Assembly: GCA_039802005.1 (NCBI GenBank)
Contig: JBDRVV010000024.1
Span: 1 to 37,335 of the forward strand
Direction of reading: 5' to 3'
Length of the DNA stretch: 37,335 bases
From: a candidate division WOR-3 bacterium
Lineage (GTDB): Bacteria; Hydrothermota; Tepidihabitantia; SM23-42; JAOAFX01
The notes under the pieces were generated by a model that saw only the letters and a program-made list of their open reading frames with translations, did no database searches and had not been told where the DNA came from. The stretch's first letter is position 1, and every line of letters starts with the position of its first letter. Positions 9,475-24,428 of this stretch are shown in pieces. The position numbers and the translations under genes were made by a program.

Positions 9475-9684
9475 AATTTTTTAATTAACGAAACTAATAG
9501 CCAGGCAAGACTGACCACTACAAATATAAAATTCTTACTAAATTAACTCCAGAAAATTCATAGTTTGATGACATAGTCGCCAATATGCTCATTGGGTATA
9601 GTCTTATGGTCAATTACCTAAATCGTGAAAAATCTTCGTAACTCTTTCAATTTATCATCGTCAGTATATCTGATGGAGGTCGGA
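9475..9684. other. AT-rich intergenic stretch before the CusB gene
   Basis: About 210 bases with no gene or repeat that I can support. No consensus promoter for the efflux genes could be chosen with confidence. The only clear signal is the GGAGGT ribosome site at 9675-9680. Confidence 0.5.
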
Positions 9685-17885: not shown

Positions 17886-18737
17886 TTAGCCTAATATCTG
17901 TTTAATCATTTTGGGAACTACAATCGTTTTTGAGTAAAAGAGCGGTTCTATTTCCATTAGAATATCCTCACGATTACTCCCTTTTATTTTTTCAGCGAGG
18001 AAAATGCTGCTATCGATAGGCATTACGGCACCCTTTACTTTTAATATGCCTTCGATCTGTTGAGTATGATAATCAAGACGCTTCTGGGTATCCTTGGATT
18101 CACTTGTTACCCAGAGATAATGGCTGCGGTTTACATTGTGATTTTTTTCTAATTTACTTTTAAAATTGTGAATATAACTGACCATCGCACGCTGGATTGA
18201 AGATGTGATTGTAAATCCACCGGAATACGCCTTAGCGTCAACAATCAGTCCGTAAGAATCTTTCTTGGTCTTGGCATGATACCAGAAAAGGGAATCAGGT
18301 TCATCTGGCCCACCCAAAGGAATACCCTCAAAACCAATGATTTCTGTATATAATCTGTGCACAGATTTTTCAAAGTCGCGAGCCTTTAGTTTTCCGCTAT
18401 ATGCTTCCTGTATAATTTGTTCAATAAATTGGCTATCAATATTTACCAAAGTGCTTTTTAGGTTAACAATTAGTTTCTTAATTTTTTCGCCTAACTTTAC
18501 GATCTCTTCAGCAAAGGTAGGAATATTCAAATTGATTTTTTCTTTCAGGATAACGAAGTTACTCACTCTCTGTATCAAAATACCAGTGTTGATTAAGCCT
18601 CTAAGGTCATTCTCTACCTCTTCTTCTTTTGATTTTAAGCCATTATGCTCAAGGAAAAGCAGAATTTCATTTAACGGCACTTCTTTACCTTTTTTCTTTA
18701 ATAAATGTGTCAAAATTAAGGAACGTCTCTTTCTCAA
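17886..18737 (-). CDS. FokI-type restriction endonuclease, D3 plus cleavage part
   Basis: A 283-residue protein colinear with the second half of FokI (type IIS, cleaves at a distance from its site). The first ~70 residues (LRKRRSLILTHLLKK...ENDLRGLINTGILI) align with the FokI third recognition subdomain (VRTRRALILEILIK...ENDIKGLINTGIFI). The C-terminal half is the PD-(D/E)XK nuclease: EPDSLFW with Asp at about 148, then YGLIVDAKAYSGGF with Asp 167 and Lys 169, matching FokI D450, D467 and K469. The catalytic triad is therefore intact. It begins at a TTG whose last bases overlap the TGA of the preceding ORF (TTGA), in the -1 frame. This is either a natural split enzyme, a frameshift-dependent fusion, or a one-base T loss in the sequence. 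Confidence 0.9.
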   Translation of the reverse strand: MRKRRSLILTHLLKKKGKEVPLNEILLFLEHNGLKSKEEEVENDLRGLINTGILIQRVSNFVILKEKINLNIPTFAEEIVKLGEKIKKLIVNLKSTLVNIDSQFIEQIIQEAYSGKLKARDFEKSVHRLYTEIIGFEGIPLGGPDEPDSLFWYHAKTKKDSYGLIVDAKAYSGGFTITSSIQRAMVSYIHNFKSKLEKNHNVNRSHYLWVTSESKDTQKRLDYHTQQIEGILKVKGAVMPIDSSIFLAEKIKGSNREDILMEIEPLFYSKTIVVPKMIKQILG

Positions 18738-19489
18738 TATTTGTATCCAGCCATTTTCCCCGACGCCAACATTTCAAATGAAACATTCTTTGTCACCTTG
18801 TTTTGAATACTCGCACCGAGAGCTCTCCTATATGCCTTTCTGCCTTGGTCAGTAATTCTATAAGCATGTGGTGTCCTTGCAGAATAAACAGCGCCTGCCT
18901 CTTCATATTTGAGATCCATCTCTACAGATTCAACCCAGCCCATCTGAATTAAATAATGCGCAATCATCCGCGCATATTTATCGGCAGTTCCTTCTTTGTA
19001 TGAAATTATTTTATTTTTTGCACTTTTATTAGGAGCAAGATGATATTCTTTTATAAAATTTTCCTTACCATATAAAGTAAATCCGCGTTCACCTGAAAAA
19101 CCTAGGTTTTTAGCGATATCAAATTTCGTCAGATGCCCATAATTAACAAGTAGCTCAAGAATCCTGCAAGCCGGCGGATACGAGAGTAATCCTTTTTCAA
19201 ATATTGTTCTTTCCGCCATTGAATTTGGCTCGGAATTGAGCAAATCAATGCCCAATTCTGTTAGTGAAAAATCATCAGTTTCACGATTGTATTCAATAAA
19301 CCCAAGTGCCTCGGCAAGCCTTACATATGTATTATCTGCCCAGCGGCCTATGTCTAAAGATATGCCCACAAGTTTTTGGCTCTCAACAATGTCTAAAGGT
19401 CTGTCAGAAAGTTTAAAAACTTCGACGACCTTCCTTAATTTGTTCAATTCACCTGCATCCTGAATCCAACCCAATGTCCGAGAGCGCAT
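18734..19489 (-). CDS. FokI-type restriction endonuclease, recognition part (D1-D2)
   Basis: A 251-residue protein colinear with the first half of FokI. Matching phrases run in order: RTLGWIQDAGELNKLRKVVEVF (FokI RTFGWVQNPGKFENLKRVVQVF, shown only in part), LAEALGFIEY, LLSYPPACRILELL, HLTKFDIAKNLGFSGERGFT, DKYARMIAHYL, HAYRITDQG and SFEMLAS. These are the DNA-recognition subdomains D1 and D2; there is no nuclease motif. The ORF stops (KYK-Y-TGA region) exactly where FokI passes from D2 to D3. Its ATG overlaps the methylase stop by one base (TAATG), and AGAGG lies upstream, so translation is coupled. Target site GGATG is that of FokI and is only a guess here. Confidence 0.9.
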   Translation of the reverse strand: MRSRTLGWIQDAGELNKLRKVVEVFKLSDRPLDIVESQKLVGISLDIGRWADNTYVRLAEALGFIEYNRETDDFSLTELGIDLLNSEPNSMAERTIFEKGLLSYPPACRILELLVNYGHLTKFDIAKNLGFSGERGFTLYGKENFIKEYHLAPNKSAKNKIISYKEGTADKYARMIAHYLIQMGWVESVEMDLKYEEAGAVYSARTPHAYRITDQGRKAYRRALGASIQNKVTKNVSFEMLASGKMAGYKY

Positions 19490-21540
19490 TATGCCTCTTT
19501 TCTAAACACCAAAATAAATTGATGAAGTTGATTTGGAACAAAGGCATATGGGTAGCCATAGGGATAAAGCGTAATCGTCTTGTCATACCAAATTTTGTAG
19601 CCTTTAAAATAAAGTGTATCAATTTTTGATAATTCCTGAATAATATCATTATGTAGCAAACCATTATACTCTTTAGTGGGTTGAAAATCCTTGGTAAATA
19701 ATACTACATATTTTTTATTATTTAAATATTTAATTGCTTTTTCAATGATTTTTCGTAATTCTTCAAGAAAAAGGGGGAGCGGTAAATTGCCGATATCCTC
19801 TGCTGAATTTGTAAATGGAGTAGGTGCATTGTTCTTTTTTCGTTTAGCACTTTCACCCGTCTTTTTTCGTGCCTGCATATCGCCATAAGGGGGGTCAGTT
19901 AAAATTAGGTCAAACCGTCTGCATATTACTTCATCAAAATTTTCCAAATGCTTTGAATTACCAACCAAGGCTATTTGTTCTTTCAGATTTTCTCTTTTAC
20001 AAACTTCTTTGTAAATATCAATATATTTTGCTGATATATCAATCCCCACACCATTCCGATTGGATAGTGAACATCCTAAAAGTGTCCCTCCGACCCCCAT
20101 AAATGGATCTAAAACCCATTGATCGTGTTTGGTAAAAAATTCAATTATTTTTTTCATTAACTGAGGGGGCTTCGGTGACGGGTGTTTTTTTCGTAATTCA
20201 TGACAGAATCCTTCTTTACCTTTCGTTGAATATGCTGTTACCTCAACAGAATTCAAAAAGTAAACCCATTCTCTTCCTGAAAGGTCATTTAATTGATTTT
20301 TCTTATCTAAGGATTTATCAGTTGCCTCTGTCTTAAAAATTGTGCTACTTGGTATTTCTTTATCTAAAGAAGGGAAGAGTGAATATGTTGGAAATTGTTC
20401 TTTTACTAATATTGTGTCTCTGCGCGCTTTTTTACTAACCGCGGGAGAAATGAAGAACACTTTCTTCCAATATTTTGTATTGCGAACATAATATAATAAT
20501 TCAACAACTCCAGTTGATTGTGCACCATTTTGATTACTCTTGAATCGACGATAGGGTTTTTGAAAAACTTCAACTTTGCCAAGTTGACTCAATATCTTTT
20601 TGATTTCATTGTCTTTCATTAGCCCCTCATTATTATAGCTAAATAATACATGAGTCGCTTTTGCATTGGCAATGATATCATCCAATGCTTCCAAGACAAT
20701 TCCTTTCTGGCAGTATCTTGACCTTTGGTGCTTATATGGTCTGAGTCCAGTTTTACCATATATCAGAGGGTTATCCCATTCAGCGATAGTTTCGAGGATA
20801 TGATAATTTGTGATATATTGTCGTTCATTATAGGGTGGGTCAAGATAAAGAACATCGCATTCAATCTCTTTTATTAGTTTATTAGCATCTGACATATTGA
20901 TATAATGAGTGTGAATACTTGGGATTACTTCTGGGACTTCTAAAGTCAATTTTTTATATGCCCTTGGGTCCCAGAATTTAAGGAAAGCACCATAAGTTCC
21001 AGATATATTTGAGACCGATGGAACCGCTTCAATTAAGGATGCCAACAGACAGTAGTATTCGTCTTCGTTGATATAGTCCATATTACACCATTTCTGTATG
21101 GTATTTCTTATTGCATCAATGCGCATAGCGTTGGCGCCAGTAAAATATTTTCTCTGAAATTCTTTTTGCGCTGTACCCTCATCAGAATAATTTTCGAACA
21201 TAAATCCTTTTTCCCCTTCTAAATTATTCAAATAATAAAGCACTAAATAAATCGCTTCGGTTTTATATTTGTATTTGGTAATGTTATTTTTGTCTAATAA
21301 GTGAGGAATAAGATTTTCAAAACTGGGGTAATTGTTATTTTTAATATAGGCGTATTGAAACACATAAGAAAATTTAAGGTTATCATTTGTTATCAATCTG
21401 AATCCCTTGCGCTTAAAATATTTCGCAACTGCCGTAGTACCAGTAAACAAATCACAAAAAACCCCCTCGGTTATCCCTTTATCTACAATAACTTTGCCGA
21501 TAAAATCTAAAAGGTTTTCCTTACTGCCAATAAATCTCAT
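19489..21540 (-). CDS. Type IIS two-domain DNA adenine methyltransferase (M.FokI-like)
   Basis: The start is set at ATG 21540 because M.FokI/Dam-type enzymes begin MRFIGSK; the in-frame TTG three codons upstream lies in the promoter. The first half is a D12/alpha-class N6-adenine methylase: MRFIGSKENLL, SAM motif FCDLFTGTTAVA (about 28-40), catalytic DPPYNERQY (about 234). The second half has KHPSPKPPQLMKKIIEFF, SAM motif VLDPFMGVGGTLLGC (about 476-490) and TDPPYGD (about 549-554), resembling the N6_N4 type. An asymmetric site needs one methylase per strand, so two domains fit a FokI-type system. It is first in the order methylase, recognition ORF, cleavage ORF, all overlapping. It has its own promoter that gives a nearly leaderless transcript. 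Confidence 0.92.
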   Translation of the reverse strand: MRFIGSKENLLDFIGKVIVDKGITEGVFCDLFTGTTAVAKYFKRKGFRLITNDNLKFSYVFQYAYIKNNNYPSFENLIPHLLDKNNITKYKYKTEAIYLVLYYLNNLEGEKGFMFENYSDEGTAQKEFQRKYFTGANAMRIDAIRNTIQKWCNMDYINEDEYYCLLASLIEAVPSVSNISGTYGAFLKFWDPRAYKKLTLEVPEVIPSIHTHYINMSDANKLIKEIECDVLYLDPPYNERQYITNYHILETIAEWDNPLIYGKTGLRPYKHQRSRYCQKGIVLEALDDIIANAKATHVLFSYNNEGLMKDNEIKKILSQLGKVEVFQKPYRRFKSNQNGAQSTGVVELLYYVRNTKYWKKVFFISPAVSKKARRDTILVKEQFPTYSLFPSLDKEIPSSTIFKTEATDKSLDKKNQLNDLSGREWVYFLNSVEVTAYSTKGKEGFCHELRKKHPSPKPPQLMKKIIEFFTKHDQWVLDPFMGVGGTLLGCSLSNRNGVGIDISAKYIDIYKEVCKRENLKEQIALVGNSKHLENFDEVICRRFDLILTDPPYGDMQARKKTGESAKRKKNNAPTPFTNSAEDIGNLPLPLFLEELRKIIEKAIKYLNNKKYVVLFTKDFQPTKEYNGLLHNDIIQELSKIDTLYFKGYKIWYDKTITLYPYGYPYAFVPNQLHQFILVFRKEA

Positions 21541-21548
21541 AATGCGCA

Positions 21549-21576
21549 ATTATATTAATTCCCATCTATGGTTCAA
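21549..21576 (-). promoter_or_regulatory. Promoter of the R-M operon, leaderless
   Basis: On the minus strand TTGAAC (21576-21571), 16 bases, TATAAT (21554-21549). The predicted transcript starts about two bases before the methylase ATG. The box overlaps the stop codon of the upstream relic. Confidence 0.65.
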
Positions 21577-21813
21577 GAGTATTAGTTGCCTTTGTGCACT
21601 CTCAATCAACTCACGCCGAGTTCTTTTTGAAGTCTCATCACCAAGGATAATCCGCAATCTTTTTAATTTTTGCCACGAATCTTCCAAGGATAGTAGAGCG
21701 CCAATTTCAAAATAGCCGGTGGCAATGTCTAAGGATACTACTTGCGGAAGCAAAGATTTTAGATGGCCAAGCAAGGTGTTATCTTCACGATTATCTATGA
21801 TTATCTTTGCCAT
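21550..21813 (-). pseudogene. N-terminal relic of a PLD-like/helicase defence protein
   Basis: An 87-residue ORF reading IIIDNREDNTLLGHLKSLLP, then SLDIATGYFEIGALLSL and RLRIILGDETSKRTRREL. This is the beginning of the large (about 1000 residues) phospholipase-D-like plus helicase proteins that accompany Eco57I-type methylases in defence loci, as I recall the family. It ends after about one tenth of that length, one base before the methylase's first frame. A good promoter (TTGATT-16-TATAAT) still stands upstream. It is probably a remnant left when the FokI-type cassette replaced the rest, although a short expressed protein cannot be excluded. Confidence 0.6.
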
Positions 21814-21823
21814 CTTTAATTTA

Positions 21824-21851
21824 ATTATACAAACATTTCATAAAAAATCAA
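21824..21851 (-). promoter_or_regulatory. Promoter upstream of the PLD/helicase relic
   Basis: On the minus strand TTGATT (21851-21846), 16 bases, TATAAT (21829-21824). The ATG at 21813 is about four bases from the predicted start, with no ribosome site. Confidence 0.6.
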
Positions 21852-21896
21852 GGGTTGATTTTAGTTGTTTTCTACTATTAGTTATTGAGACACCCA

Positions 21897-21924
21897 TTGA
21901 CATTTTTTCCCTTTTTAGTATAGT
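21897..21924 (+). promoter_or_regulatory. Promoter of the metal permease gene
   Basis: TTGACA, 16 bases, TATAGT, with a leader of about 13 bases containing AGGA before the ATG at 21944. No copy of the 26-bp palindrome is present here. Confidence 0.65.
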
Positions 21925-21943
21925 ATTTGTGTATAGGAAAAAT

Positions 21944-22858
21944 ATGATAAATTTAATCTTCAATCAGTGCTGTCCTGAGGCGCCGGGATTTTTTGAGGCT
22001 TTACTGCACTATCTCATTGAAGTCGGTCCTCCATTGATCATTGGTTTTCTTTTGAGTGGCATTATCAATGAATTTGTGCCGGAAGAATGGGTTGAAAAAC
22101 ACTTGGGCGGTGAAGGACTGAAGCCTATACTTCTCGCCACTTTTATTGGTGCGGTTTTGCCAATCTGCTGCTGGGGTTCGTTGCCTCTGGCAGTGAGTTT
22201 TCAAAAGAAGGGCGCAAGGTTAGGTCCAATCTTAGCATTTTTAGTGGCAACACCCGGAACTTCTATTTCTGCGGTCTTAGTAACCTGGTCTGTGCTTGGA
22301 TTAAATTTTGCAATTTTTATATTCTTTTCGGTGATTATTATGGGTATTGTAATGGGGTTGATTGGCAATCTATTTTCGGTCTCTAATGTGAACAATAGTG
22401 CCGAATCACGCTGTCATTGCTGTGAAACCGAAACAGAGAAGACAATATCACAGCATATTGTATCAGTTTTAAAATTCGCCTTTGTTGACATGGTAAAGGA
22501 TATTGGCTTGGAGACATTGGTCGGGCTCGTTATTGCGGCGATCGTTGCCTCATTTGAACCGGTCGGTAGATTTGTAAAGCTCTATCTCGGTAATTACTGG
22601 GGATTTTTGTTTGCCCTTATCTTTGGAATTTTGATGTATATTTGTGCGACCTCAAGCCCACCAATGGTTGATGCATGTATTAGTCGCGGCTTGTCATCAG
22701 GTGCTGGGATGACGATGTTGCTGGTTGGTCCGGTAACCAGTTACGGCACAATTCTGGTGATGCGTAAAAAATTCGGATTCAAAATTCTCTTTGTATATCT
22801 AATAACCATCTCCTTGCTTTCTTTGATTTTTGGATATCTGTTTCAAACTATCGCTTGA
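21944..22858 (+). CDS. SO_0444/ArsP-type metal or arsenical efflux permease
   Basis: A 304-residue inner-membrane permease (DUF318/ArsP_1 family, which includes SO_0444-type Cu/Zn and organoarsenical exporters). The ATG at 21944 is preferred because it follows the promoter and AGGA and gives the family's usual start. There are about eight hydrophobic segments, with the conserved GAVLPICCWGSLPLAVSF, FLVATPGTSISAVLVTWSVLG and CATSSPPMVDACISRG, TMLLVGPVTSYGTI. A cysteine/histidine cluster CHCCETE sits in the central cytoplasmic loop and an early NQCCPEAPG lies near the N-terminus; both could bind metal. It is followed by an arsR-type regulator with a palindromic operator, so metal- or metalloid-controlled efflux is likely. 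The ion itself is not determined by the sequence. Confidence 0.88.
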   Translation: MINLIFNQCCPEAPGFFEALLHYLIEVGPPLIIGFLLSGIINEFVPEEWVEKHLGGEGLKPILLATFIGAVLPICCWGSLPLAVSFQKKGARLGPILAFLVATPGTSISAVLVTWSVLGLNFAIFIFFSVIIMGIVMGLIGNLFSVSNVNNSAESRCHCCETETEKTISQHIVSVLKFAFVDMVKDIGLETLVGLVIAAIVASFEPVGRFVKLYLGNYWGFLFALIFGILMYICATSSPPMVDACISRGLSSGAGMTMLLVGPVTSYGTILVMRKKFGFKILFVYLITISLLSLIFGYLFQTIA

Positions 22859-22891
22859 TTTTACCACAATGCCAAAGAATATTATCATTTC

Positions 22892-22917
22892 ATCATTTCT
22901 ACAATTGACAAAATGAT
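22892..22917. promoter_or_regulatory. 26-bp palindromic operator, copy B, overlapping arsR promoter
   Basis: Left half ATCATTTCTACAA, right half TTGACAAAATGAT; 10 of 13 positions pair. An extra ATCATTTC sits directly to its left. The right half contains the TTGACA -35 box of the regulator gene, so a bound repressor would block RNA polymerase, the usual autoregulation of ArsR proteins. Confidence 0.75.
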
Positions 22918-22932
22918 GATTTTATGTATTAT
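22905..22932 (+). promoter_or_regulatory. arsR promoter, leaderless
   Basis: TTGACA, 16 bases, TATTAT. The -10 box ends six bases before the ATG at 22938, so the mRNA should start at or within a base of the start codon. Confidence 0.75.
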
Positions 22933-22937
22933 TGATT

Positions 22938-23252
22938 ATGGAAAGAAGAAAGAAAATACCAGAAGTTCATTATCGGGCATCGCGGATATGCCGAATCTTA
23001 GGCAATCCTACTGCTTATGAAATTATACATTTGTTAAGGAATAATATGATGAGACCTGAGGAGATAGCGTCAGCACTGGGCGTTAGTATGTCCACAGTTT
23101 CTATGACTCTCCGCTCATTAAGACAAATTGATCTGGTGAGATATATCGTAAAATGGAAAAAGAGGATATACTGGATAAAGGATGAAAAGGTTCTGACCGT
23201 TATGGATGAATTGGAAAAATTAGTTAAACGAATCAAGTTTCGTGATTATTAA
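22938..23252 (+). CDS. ArsR/SmtB-family metal-responsive repressor
   Basis: A 104-residue winged-helix protein. The start ATG 22938 (MERRKKIPEVHYRASRICRILGNPTAYEIIHLL) is chosen over the TTG two codons upstream, which lies in the -10 box. The helix-turn-helix reads RPEEIASALGVSMSTVSMTLRSLRQIDLV and the wing YIVKWKKRIYWI. The ELCVCDL metal site of classic ArsR/SmtB is absent. A single Cys (about 18) and a His (about 11) near the N-terminus are the visible candidate ligands. The operator-like palindrome overlaps its promoter and recurs four bases after its stop, so it probably represses itself and neighbouring genes. Confidence 0.9.
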   Translation: MERRKKIPEVHYRASRICRILGNPTAYEIIHLLRNNMMRPEEIASALGVSMSTVSMTLRSLRQIDLVRYIVKWKKRIYWIKDEKVLTVMDELEKLVKRIKFRDY

Positions 23253-23255
23253 TTT

Positions 23256-23281
23256 ATTATTTCTACAATTGTTGAAGTGAT
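23256..23281. promoter_or_regulatory. 26-bp palindromic operator-like site, copy C
   Basis: Left half ATTATTTCTACAA, right half TTGTTGAAGTGAT; 10 of 13 positions pair. It lies between the regulator and the truncated cysteine synthase gene, and has the same length and centre as copies A and B. No consensus promoter is obvious over it. Confidence 0.65.
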
Positions 23282-23355
23282 AAAATGATAGCTAAGGATC
23301 GGTATATCAGTAGAGTTAAGGATAAGTGGGGTATCAGTATAATTGGAGACTCGGG

Positions 23356-23577
23356 ATGAAGATTGCTAATGATATCACTGAAGTGATTGGCAATACGCCG
23401 TTGGTAAGATTAAATAGAATAACCAGCGGAATCGAGGCTGAGATTGTTACCAAATTTGAGTCGTTCAACCCACTCCATAGTGTAAAAGACCGAATCGGCT
23501 ATGCGATGATTCTAGACGCTGAAGAAAAAGATTGCCTATTTTTTAATGAACAGTTTTTACGGCTCCTCTTTTTTTGA
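23356..23577 (+). pseudogene. Cysteine synthase (CysK-type) N-terminal fragment
   Basis: About 56 residues match the start of PLP-dependent O-acetylserine sulfhydrylase: [17 protein letters not shown], then [19 protein letters not shown], including the PLP lysine in SVKDR. Similarity ends near 23525, after LDAEE. The remaining codons are unrelated and run into the 3' end of the convergent transporter gene. The full protein is about 300 residues, so this is a deletion remnant. ATG 23356 is chosen as the family's usual start; GGAG lies 8-10 bases upstream. It was probably controlled by the operator before it. Confidence 0.8.
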
Positions 23578-23976
23578 TAAGAGACAGATACCCAATGCAA
23601 GGAATAATAAGCCAAAGAATTGTAATGCGGTAATAAATTCCTTTAAAATCACAAATCCTAACAACGATGCAAAAAATGGAGTAGCAAGTTCTAAGGCAGA
23701 GACCTGGGCGGCTTTGATTCTTTTTAGCCCTTTGTAATATAAAATTGTACCAATGCCGATGACAAAGCCTAAAAGAACTTGATATATATTTGCTATTTTG
23801 ATTCCATGGGTCAGCAGAAGATATACAAAAAATATTATCCCGGCAAATAAGAATCTGTAGAATGCAATCACTTGTGCAGGGAGTTCTCTTAAATATTTTC
23901 TGGTGGTTATTGCGGTTGTTGCCCAGGCAAAGGTGGCAAAGAGCACAAGGAGGTCACCGAAAGTCCCGAGTTTCAA
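23557..23976 (-). CDS. EamA-family transporter, C-terminal half (split gene)
   Basis: 139 residues with five predicted membrane helices ([86 protein letters not shown]). It equals the second EamA repeat of a drug/metabolite transporter. It begins at a TTG overlapping the stop of the first half (TTGA), in the -1 frame. One additional T in the ATTTGA run would fuse the two halves into a normal ~290-residue protein. The substrate is unknown. Confidence 0.75.
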
Positions 23977-24428
23977 ATCCTTAGATTATCAATCGTCTTC
24001 GTTGATACAAAAATACCAGCAAATATCATAAATATGATTCCCAGATAATCAAATTTTGTAAGACGGTCTGATTTCAAAAAGAAATAGCCTAAGATTACAA
24101 TAAAAATCGGCTGGGTATGTCCAATAAGAACTGCGTTTATGACCATTACCTTTGTGAATGCATATGTATAAAGAAAGTCTGCAAACAAAGTTGCGACTAT
24201 TGAGAGATAAATGAGCCATTTTAAATCTCTTGTCTTAACCTTTAGATCTCTTGGATTTTTTAAGAAGGCATAGACGGTTATAATCATTAAACAGAATAGA
24301 ACTCTCGTGGCAAAGGTATTCAGAACATCGGTTGCCTGGAAAGATAATTTTGCAAATATCGGCTCCAGTGCCCACATCACACTCGCACCAAGAACTGCAA
24401 GTATACCAATCGTCTTATTTGAAGGCAA
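23973..24428 (-). CDS. EamA-family transporter, N-terminal half (split gene)
   Basis: 151 residues with five membrane helices (IGILAVLGASVMWALEPIFAK..., ending YLGIIFMIFAGIFVSTKTID). It is the first EamA repeat. The frame opens at a TTG with no ribosome site, and no ATG or GTG is available before the upstream stop, so the start also looks damaged. With the frameshift to the second half and the decayed cysteine synthase gene beside it, the transporter is probably a pseudogene, unless the frameshift is an assembly error. Confidence 0.7.
   Translation of the reverse strand: MPSNKTIGILAVLGASVMWALEPIFAKLSFQATDVLNTFATRVLFCLMIITVYAFLKNPRDLKVKTRDLKWLIYLSIVATLFADFLYTYAFTKVMVINAVLIGHTQPIFIVILGYFFLKSDRLTKFDYLGIIFMIFAGIFVSTKTIDNLRI

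Follow-up and report, generated by a model that had tools for sequence, protein, structure and literature searches.

Matching palindromes on both sides of ArsR-like regulator genes in candidate division WOR-3

Genes for a family of small ArsR-like winged-helix proteins in candidate division WOR-3 bacteria are commonly bracketed by long palindromes that match each other across one gene and differ between paralogs. The arrangement is present in the window, by which we mean the whole 37,335-nucleotide stretch of DNA analyzed here. The window is one contig (C24) of a 2.54-Mb genome in 62 contigs, which was searched by patterns and sampled stretches. A sequence-only reading of the window had taken three copies of a palindrome to define an ArsR-type metal regulon. 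The palindromes are confirmed, and the finding extends further than first described; its metal interpretation is unsupported. The encoded proteins are probably metal-blind autorepressors that are bound at both ends of their own gene.

Palindromes of the window and their distribution

The regulator gene, called arsR here, occupies positions 22938 to 23252 of the forward strand and encodes an ArsR-fold winged-helix protein of 104 amino acids from a leaderless ATG at 22938; the mechanically called open reading frame begins at a TTG at 22932. Palindrome B (22885-22919, core 22892-22917) lies upstream and is a candidate operator with tandem TCATTTC half-sites that recurs 5' of orthologs. Palindrome C (23253-23284, core 23256-23281) starts directly behind the regulator stop codon, 364 bp from B. 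Palindrome A (1041-1076, core 1048-1073) is a solo copy lying between two 3' ends, that of tolC on the forward strand and that of a T9SS-tail gene on the reverse strand. None of the palindromes is assigned a strand. All three exist as the sequence-only reading described them: cores A and B agree at 23 of 26 positions, as do A and the reverse complement of C, and A, B and C are self-complementary at 22, 20 and 20 of 26 positions, respectively. Each 26-bp core is the central part of a longer element, in whose arms 8-bp half-sites are repeated in tandem.

In the window's own genome, the 26-mer occurs at five places with up to three mismatches (reversed control pattern, none), and a looser 24-mer occurs at six (reversed control, one). 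The three palindromes are far beyond chance; a chance origin was rejected because strong palindromes are otherwise nearly absent, outside the regulator family, from 400 kb of sampled DNA and the window. This class of palindrome, termed class 1, was detected in 20 of 61 genomes (the window's own and 60 relatives), with no match to the reversed control in any of them. The 20 genomes belong to the window's family, to another family (f2) of the same order and to one further family (f3). Palindrome pairs spaced 360 to 367 bp apart each enclose an ortholog of the window's arsR.

Protein search places the regulator family, whose members have about 104 amino acids, in every one of the 28 close genomes searched, which comprise the window's order and family f3, at one to seven copies each; the 33 other genomes of the class have none. 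Within the class, the class-1 palindrome and the regulator family have an equal phylogenetic range. Of 147 genomes from across the phylum, 35 carry the family, and named records that have it are assigned to candidate division WOR-3, Stahlbacteria and TA06, together with two MAGs labeled Omnitrophota. IMG/VR and PLSDB hold no relatives, and a viral or plasmid origin was rejected on these grounds.

Two loci, L287 (G129:C40) and L288 (G144:C27), share 1438 identical bases though their genomes are assigned to different families, which probably reflects MAG contamination or very recent transfer. Class-1 sites lie within about 160 to 450 bp of contig ends unusually often (L045-L049 in G027, and L041, L042, L062 and L063), hinting at adjacent repeats that break assemblies. 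Among the contig-end sites of G027, two loci have approximately 250 bp of common flank at 80%, and the remaining loci are alike in the palindrome only. Another dispersed short repeat, around CAAACCTGAAGGTTTGCCCTACA, has dozens of copies in the genus (L010:8336-8366 and many places in G000-G002).

Bracketing of the gene by matching palindromes

Flanks on both sides of the gene were read for 67 family members, 54 of which remained after dereplication. Most of the 67 have an upstream palindrome, usually overlapping the predicted promoter, and the centers of these palindromes cluster at 33 nt or about 49 nt 5' of the ATG. In the 33-nt type, TTGACA within the palindrome is the -35 box, a TATAAT-like box follows approximately 16 nt on, and the ATG comes a few nucleotides later, giving a leaderless gene. 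In the 49-nt type, the palindrome is immediately 5' of the -35 box. The window's arsR is of the leaderless kind: its promoter, predicted by consensus at 22905-22932 of the forward strand, has its -35 box (TTGACA, 22905-22910) within palindrome B, a 16-nt spacer and a -10 box (TATTAT, 22927-22932). This prediction bears out the earlier statement that copy B includes the arsR -35 box, and the same layout and spacing are repeated in other species. Downstream centers are mostly 16 to 25 nt past the stop codon. The two sides clearly match in about 36 of the 54 dereplicated members, or about two thirds; about a third have no clear downstream copy and carry an upstream site alone or neither.

Palindrome sequences differ between paralogs, as exemplified by ATTTTATCATTTTGTCAATTGACAAAATGATAAAAT, TTTTCTCATTTGGTCAATTGACCAAATGAGAAAA, TCTGGTATTCTGGTAATTACCAGAATACCAGA, TACGACATTACGACATTTGTCGTAATGTTGTA and TTCATTAATTTGCCAATTGGCAAATTAATGAA. 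A gene's own upstream and downstream sites match with a mean score of 18.1, compared with 10.2 against the sites of other genes (0 of 20,000 permutations). Despite the differing sequences, a common plan is evident, consisting of a palindrome of 32 to 40 bp, each arm of which is built from two 8-bp half-sites in tandem. Tandem identity at a lag of 8 is 0.637 versus a null value of 0.289 (sd 0.023), and no other lag approaches it. Distances between palindromes and distances between proteins are correlated (Mantel p = 0.0002). An attempt to prove directly that specificity resides in the recognition helix fell short: the helix and the remainder of the protein could not be distinguished statistically as correlates of the palindrome (partial p = 0.07).

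Because the two sides match within a gene and the palindrome tracks the protein, regulator and palindrome belong together, as had been proposed. Palindromes were looked for near orthologous arsR genes and are present; orthologs in other genera have a promoter copy and often a copy behind the gene. Homologs at 35-39% identity from other WOR-3 families also have palindromes, mostly on both sides and unrelated in sequence, and the two Omnitrophota MAGs have such palindromes in less perfect form. A search of open-access papers by title or abstract found no account of such bracketing, which is weak evidence of absence. A more distant winged-helix gene outside the family, at C5:82314 (L299) of the window's genome, has identical copies of TTTCTTTGTTTCTTAAGAAACAAAGAAA on both sides; to judge from this sequence, bracketing may extend beyond the regulator family.

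We infer protein binding, repression, and looping or a roadblock, as follows. The palindromes at 22892 and 23256 would be paired operators of the regulator gene that they enclose. For the regulator, palindrome B is the most likely target, with probable occupancy by two dimers given the two tandem half-sites in each arm; the bound protein would cover the -35 box of its own leaderless promoter, which would result in self-repression. Palindrome C, which matches B and lies just 3' of the stop codon, would be a second binding site; there the protein may reinforce repression through a loop to B, block read-through or, in this genus, affect cysK. Paralogs presumably evolve new half-site sequences jointly with their own two palindromes, such that each paralog would become a self-contained switch. 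One ortholog counts against paired operators: in the arsR of G002 (L043:5064-5217), an in-frame deletion has removed the DNA-binding domain and the upstream palindrome is decayed, yet the downstream palindrome is perfect. The members with no clear downstream copy, the solo copies with no recognizable cognate gene, the location of solo copies away from promoters and the inseparability of the recognition helix also speak against this account.

Self-bracketing regulators could supply many natural, putative protein-operator pairs (54 dereplicated members, about 36 of them matched on both sides) from which to work out the DNA-recognition code of ArsR-fold proteins. That a second site so often lies behind the gene also raises a testable question, namely whether this site serves as a loop, a roadblock or an insulator.

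The regulator protein and the proposed metal regulon

The regulator matches the ArsR-type profile Pfam HTH_5 (1.2e-8; 35.1 bits against a cut-off of 22). Its AlphaFold model is a winged helix (pLDDT 93.6), for which the best PDB folds returned by Foldseek are CzrA, SmtB and NolR, with TM-scores up to about 0.8. On this model, the protein would behave as an ArsR-fold DNA binder.

A metal regulon, in which a metal-sensing ArsR would act through the three sites on both permease-arsR-cysK and tolC/cus, is very improbable. The SmtB/CzrA type of fold agrees with it, as do an SO_0444/ArsP-like permease and cysK, which flank arsR in an order kept in three genomes of the genus. In the window, the permease gene (21719-22858, forward strand) lies 5' of site B, matching Pfam ArsP_1 at 1.3e-39 and scoring 214.7 bits with NCBIfam, below the equivalog cut-off of 300. 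However, among the 67 family members no metal ligands of the α3 CxC type or at the α5 D/H sites are conserved, no position has a conserved His, and the only conserved Cys is C18 (61 of 67). The regulator also scores 49.7 bits with NCBIfam HTH_metalloreg (NF033788), below the cut-off of 55. By its ligands and curated score, the protein does not qualify as an ArsR/SmtB metal sensor. The metal-like, CVC-containing ArsR of the same genome is a separate gene (C6:73018) that is not bracketed by palindromes, and orthologs of the window's arsR outside the genus adjoin non-metal genes, encoding OmpA, T9SS-tail, GGDEF-AAA, HAD or ERCC4 proteins.

Site positions likewise argue against a metal regulon. 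Site A, which lies between convergent genes and has a counterpart at the equivalent position behind tolC in a related genome (L040 in G001), is separated by three reverse-strand genes from the cus-like genes, whose start at 9625 is 8.5 kb off. A site identical to A, at C5:72269 of the window's genome, has a convergent gene on each side, both with secretion-tail-like C termini, which gives it no metal context. The earlier observation that each copy shortly follows a metal-related gene therefore captures no meaningful common feature, and solo sites are located 3' of genes and not, as had been envisaged, in front of metal or sulfur genes. The metal regulon was rejected on ligands, neighbors and site positions. 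What survives of the proposal that one regulator governs both gene sets is the tie between regulator and palindrome, together with a plausible link to cysK; control of tolC/cus from site A is unsupported.

The cysK of the window (23356-23577, forward strand), 3' of site C, is truncated to 73 amino acids, of which approximately 58 are homologous (Pfam PALP, 1.1e-10 over 52 positions). Intact cysK genes follow site C in G001 and G002. The intact cysK of the window's own genome is on contig C16 (L074:4692-5615), preceded by a palindrome, an arsR-like -10 box and then apparent arsR remnants. Because a palindrome and -10 box of this kind stand upstream of it, the window's arsR could act on this gene in trans, and the sequences make a link of the regulator and palindrome to cysK plausible. 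Decay at the two loci is complementary: the window has an intact arsR and a truncated cysK, and C16 an intact cysK behind apparent arsR remnants.

The family resembles ArsR/SmtB metalloregulators (SmtB, CzrA and CadC) in its winged helix of approximately 100 residues, its theme of proposed autoregulation and its candidate palindromic operator near the promoter. It differs in the absence of conserved metal ligands, in a second candidate operator behind the gene, in a long operator with two tandem half-sites per arm and in many paralogs with private sites. SdpR-type proteins are ArsR-fold autorepressors with no metal site, a description that the WOR-3 regulator appears to share; however, it scores 32.7 on NCBIfam SdpR, for which the cut-off is 100, and we know of no such bracketing for SdpR. 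DtxR/IdeR-type operators also have tandem half-sites in each arm, with room for two dimers. In contrast, the WOR-3 sites have a period of 8 bp, the protein belongs to an unrelated subfamily, and no link to iron is shown. The case warns that ArsR-fold genes in candidate phyla should not be named metal regulators by profile match alone.

Solo sites and other explanations

Not one of the 52 class-1 sites placed is genic, though genes cover approximately 93% of the sampled DNA; the random scatter inside genes that would have spoken against a regulatory motif is absent. Solo class-1 copies often lie close to the gene 3' ends that they face (13 of 29 within 60 bp) and seldom to 5' ends (1 of 19; p = 0.003); when convergent gaps are taken by themselves, the excess falls short of significance (p = 0.11). 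Several genomes keep solo copies with no recognizable cognate gene. Such a pattern is more in keeping with REP-like elements or roadblocks than with a promoter regulon. In the REP-RAYT system, a gene lies between its own palindromes, protein and palindrome coevolve, and further copies are dispersed outside genes (PMC2817692). Its protein is an IS200/IS605-like tyrosine transposase, and its cognate palindromes have a GT(A/G)G head and usually exceed 100 per genome (PMC2817692). In arrangement, REP-rayt-REP minus the transposase is the closest counterpart of the WOR-3 loci. Metal-blind winged-helix proteins might then each coevolve, across WOR-3, with their own palindrome pair and a few cognate palindromes behind other genes that serve as insulators or polymerase roadblocks, although we consider such a system unlikely. 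The related view that the palindromes form a dispersed extragenic repeat family whose cognate protein is encoded by the bracketed gene, with solo copies as offspring or as docking or roadblock sites instead of promoter operators, seems to us equally doubtful.

Coevolving flanking palindromes, extragenic class-1 copies and orphan copies that persist in the absence of the gene favor the REP-like view. However, under the mismatch limits applied, each genome has only 0 to 11 copies, and the regulator is a winged helix only, with no nuclease or transposase domain. In addition, the palindromes are fully symmetric and headless, upstream copies are integral to promoters, and some solo copies have moved along with duplicated T9SS-tail genes. 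A second class of palindrome (CATTCYGGTAATTACCRGAATG), dispersed at 0 to 11 copies per genome with almost no control matches, has no 3' bias (p = 0.42), and eight of its sites are inside predicted open reading frames, some of them short. Autorepression from paired operators is the account that we favor over a REP-like one. Mycobacteriophage stoperators are asymmetric phage repressor sites, scattered outside promoters, that are proposed to stop transcription (PMC9283540). Solo class-1 copies behind genes resemble them by position only; the WOR-3 sites are palindromic and chromosomal, and their roadblock effect is putative.

It is also very unlikely that the palindromes are RNA hairpins, either terminators or protectors of mRNA 3' ends, that lie near regulator genes by coincidence. 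Copies are indeed located behind genes and between convergent genes, and perfect copies have good predicted RNA folds (-16.6 and -21.7 kcal/mol), but the window copies fold more weakly (-4.6 to -9.0 kcal/mol) and no U-tract was seen. On the transcribed strand of downstream sites, G-T mismatches are no more common than A-C mismatches (19 versus 18), which gives no hint that an RNA hairpin is under selection. Moreover, the same element forms part of the promoter upstream, and its sequence tracks the neighboring protein. An RNA element was rejected on this negative wobble test and the absence of a match in Rfam.

Two other loci of the window are on the reverse strand. Positions 17886-21549 hold a FokI-like restriction-modification locus with a 686-residue adenine methyltransferase alongside. 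The FokI-like gene is broken inside D3 into a recognition D1/D2 reading frame (18734-19489) and a reading frame for D3 plus the cleavage domain (17886-18737); the break is a frameshift, an assembly error or a natural split. At 23557-24428, an EamA-type transporter is encoded in two reading frames, each with one EamA domain.
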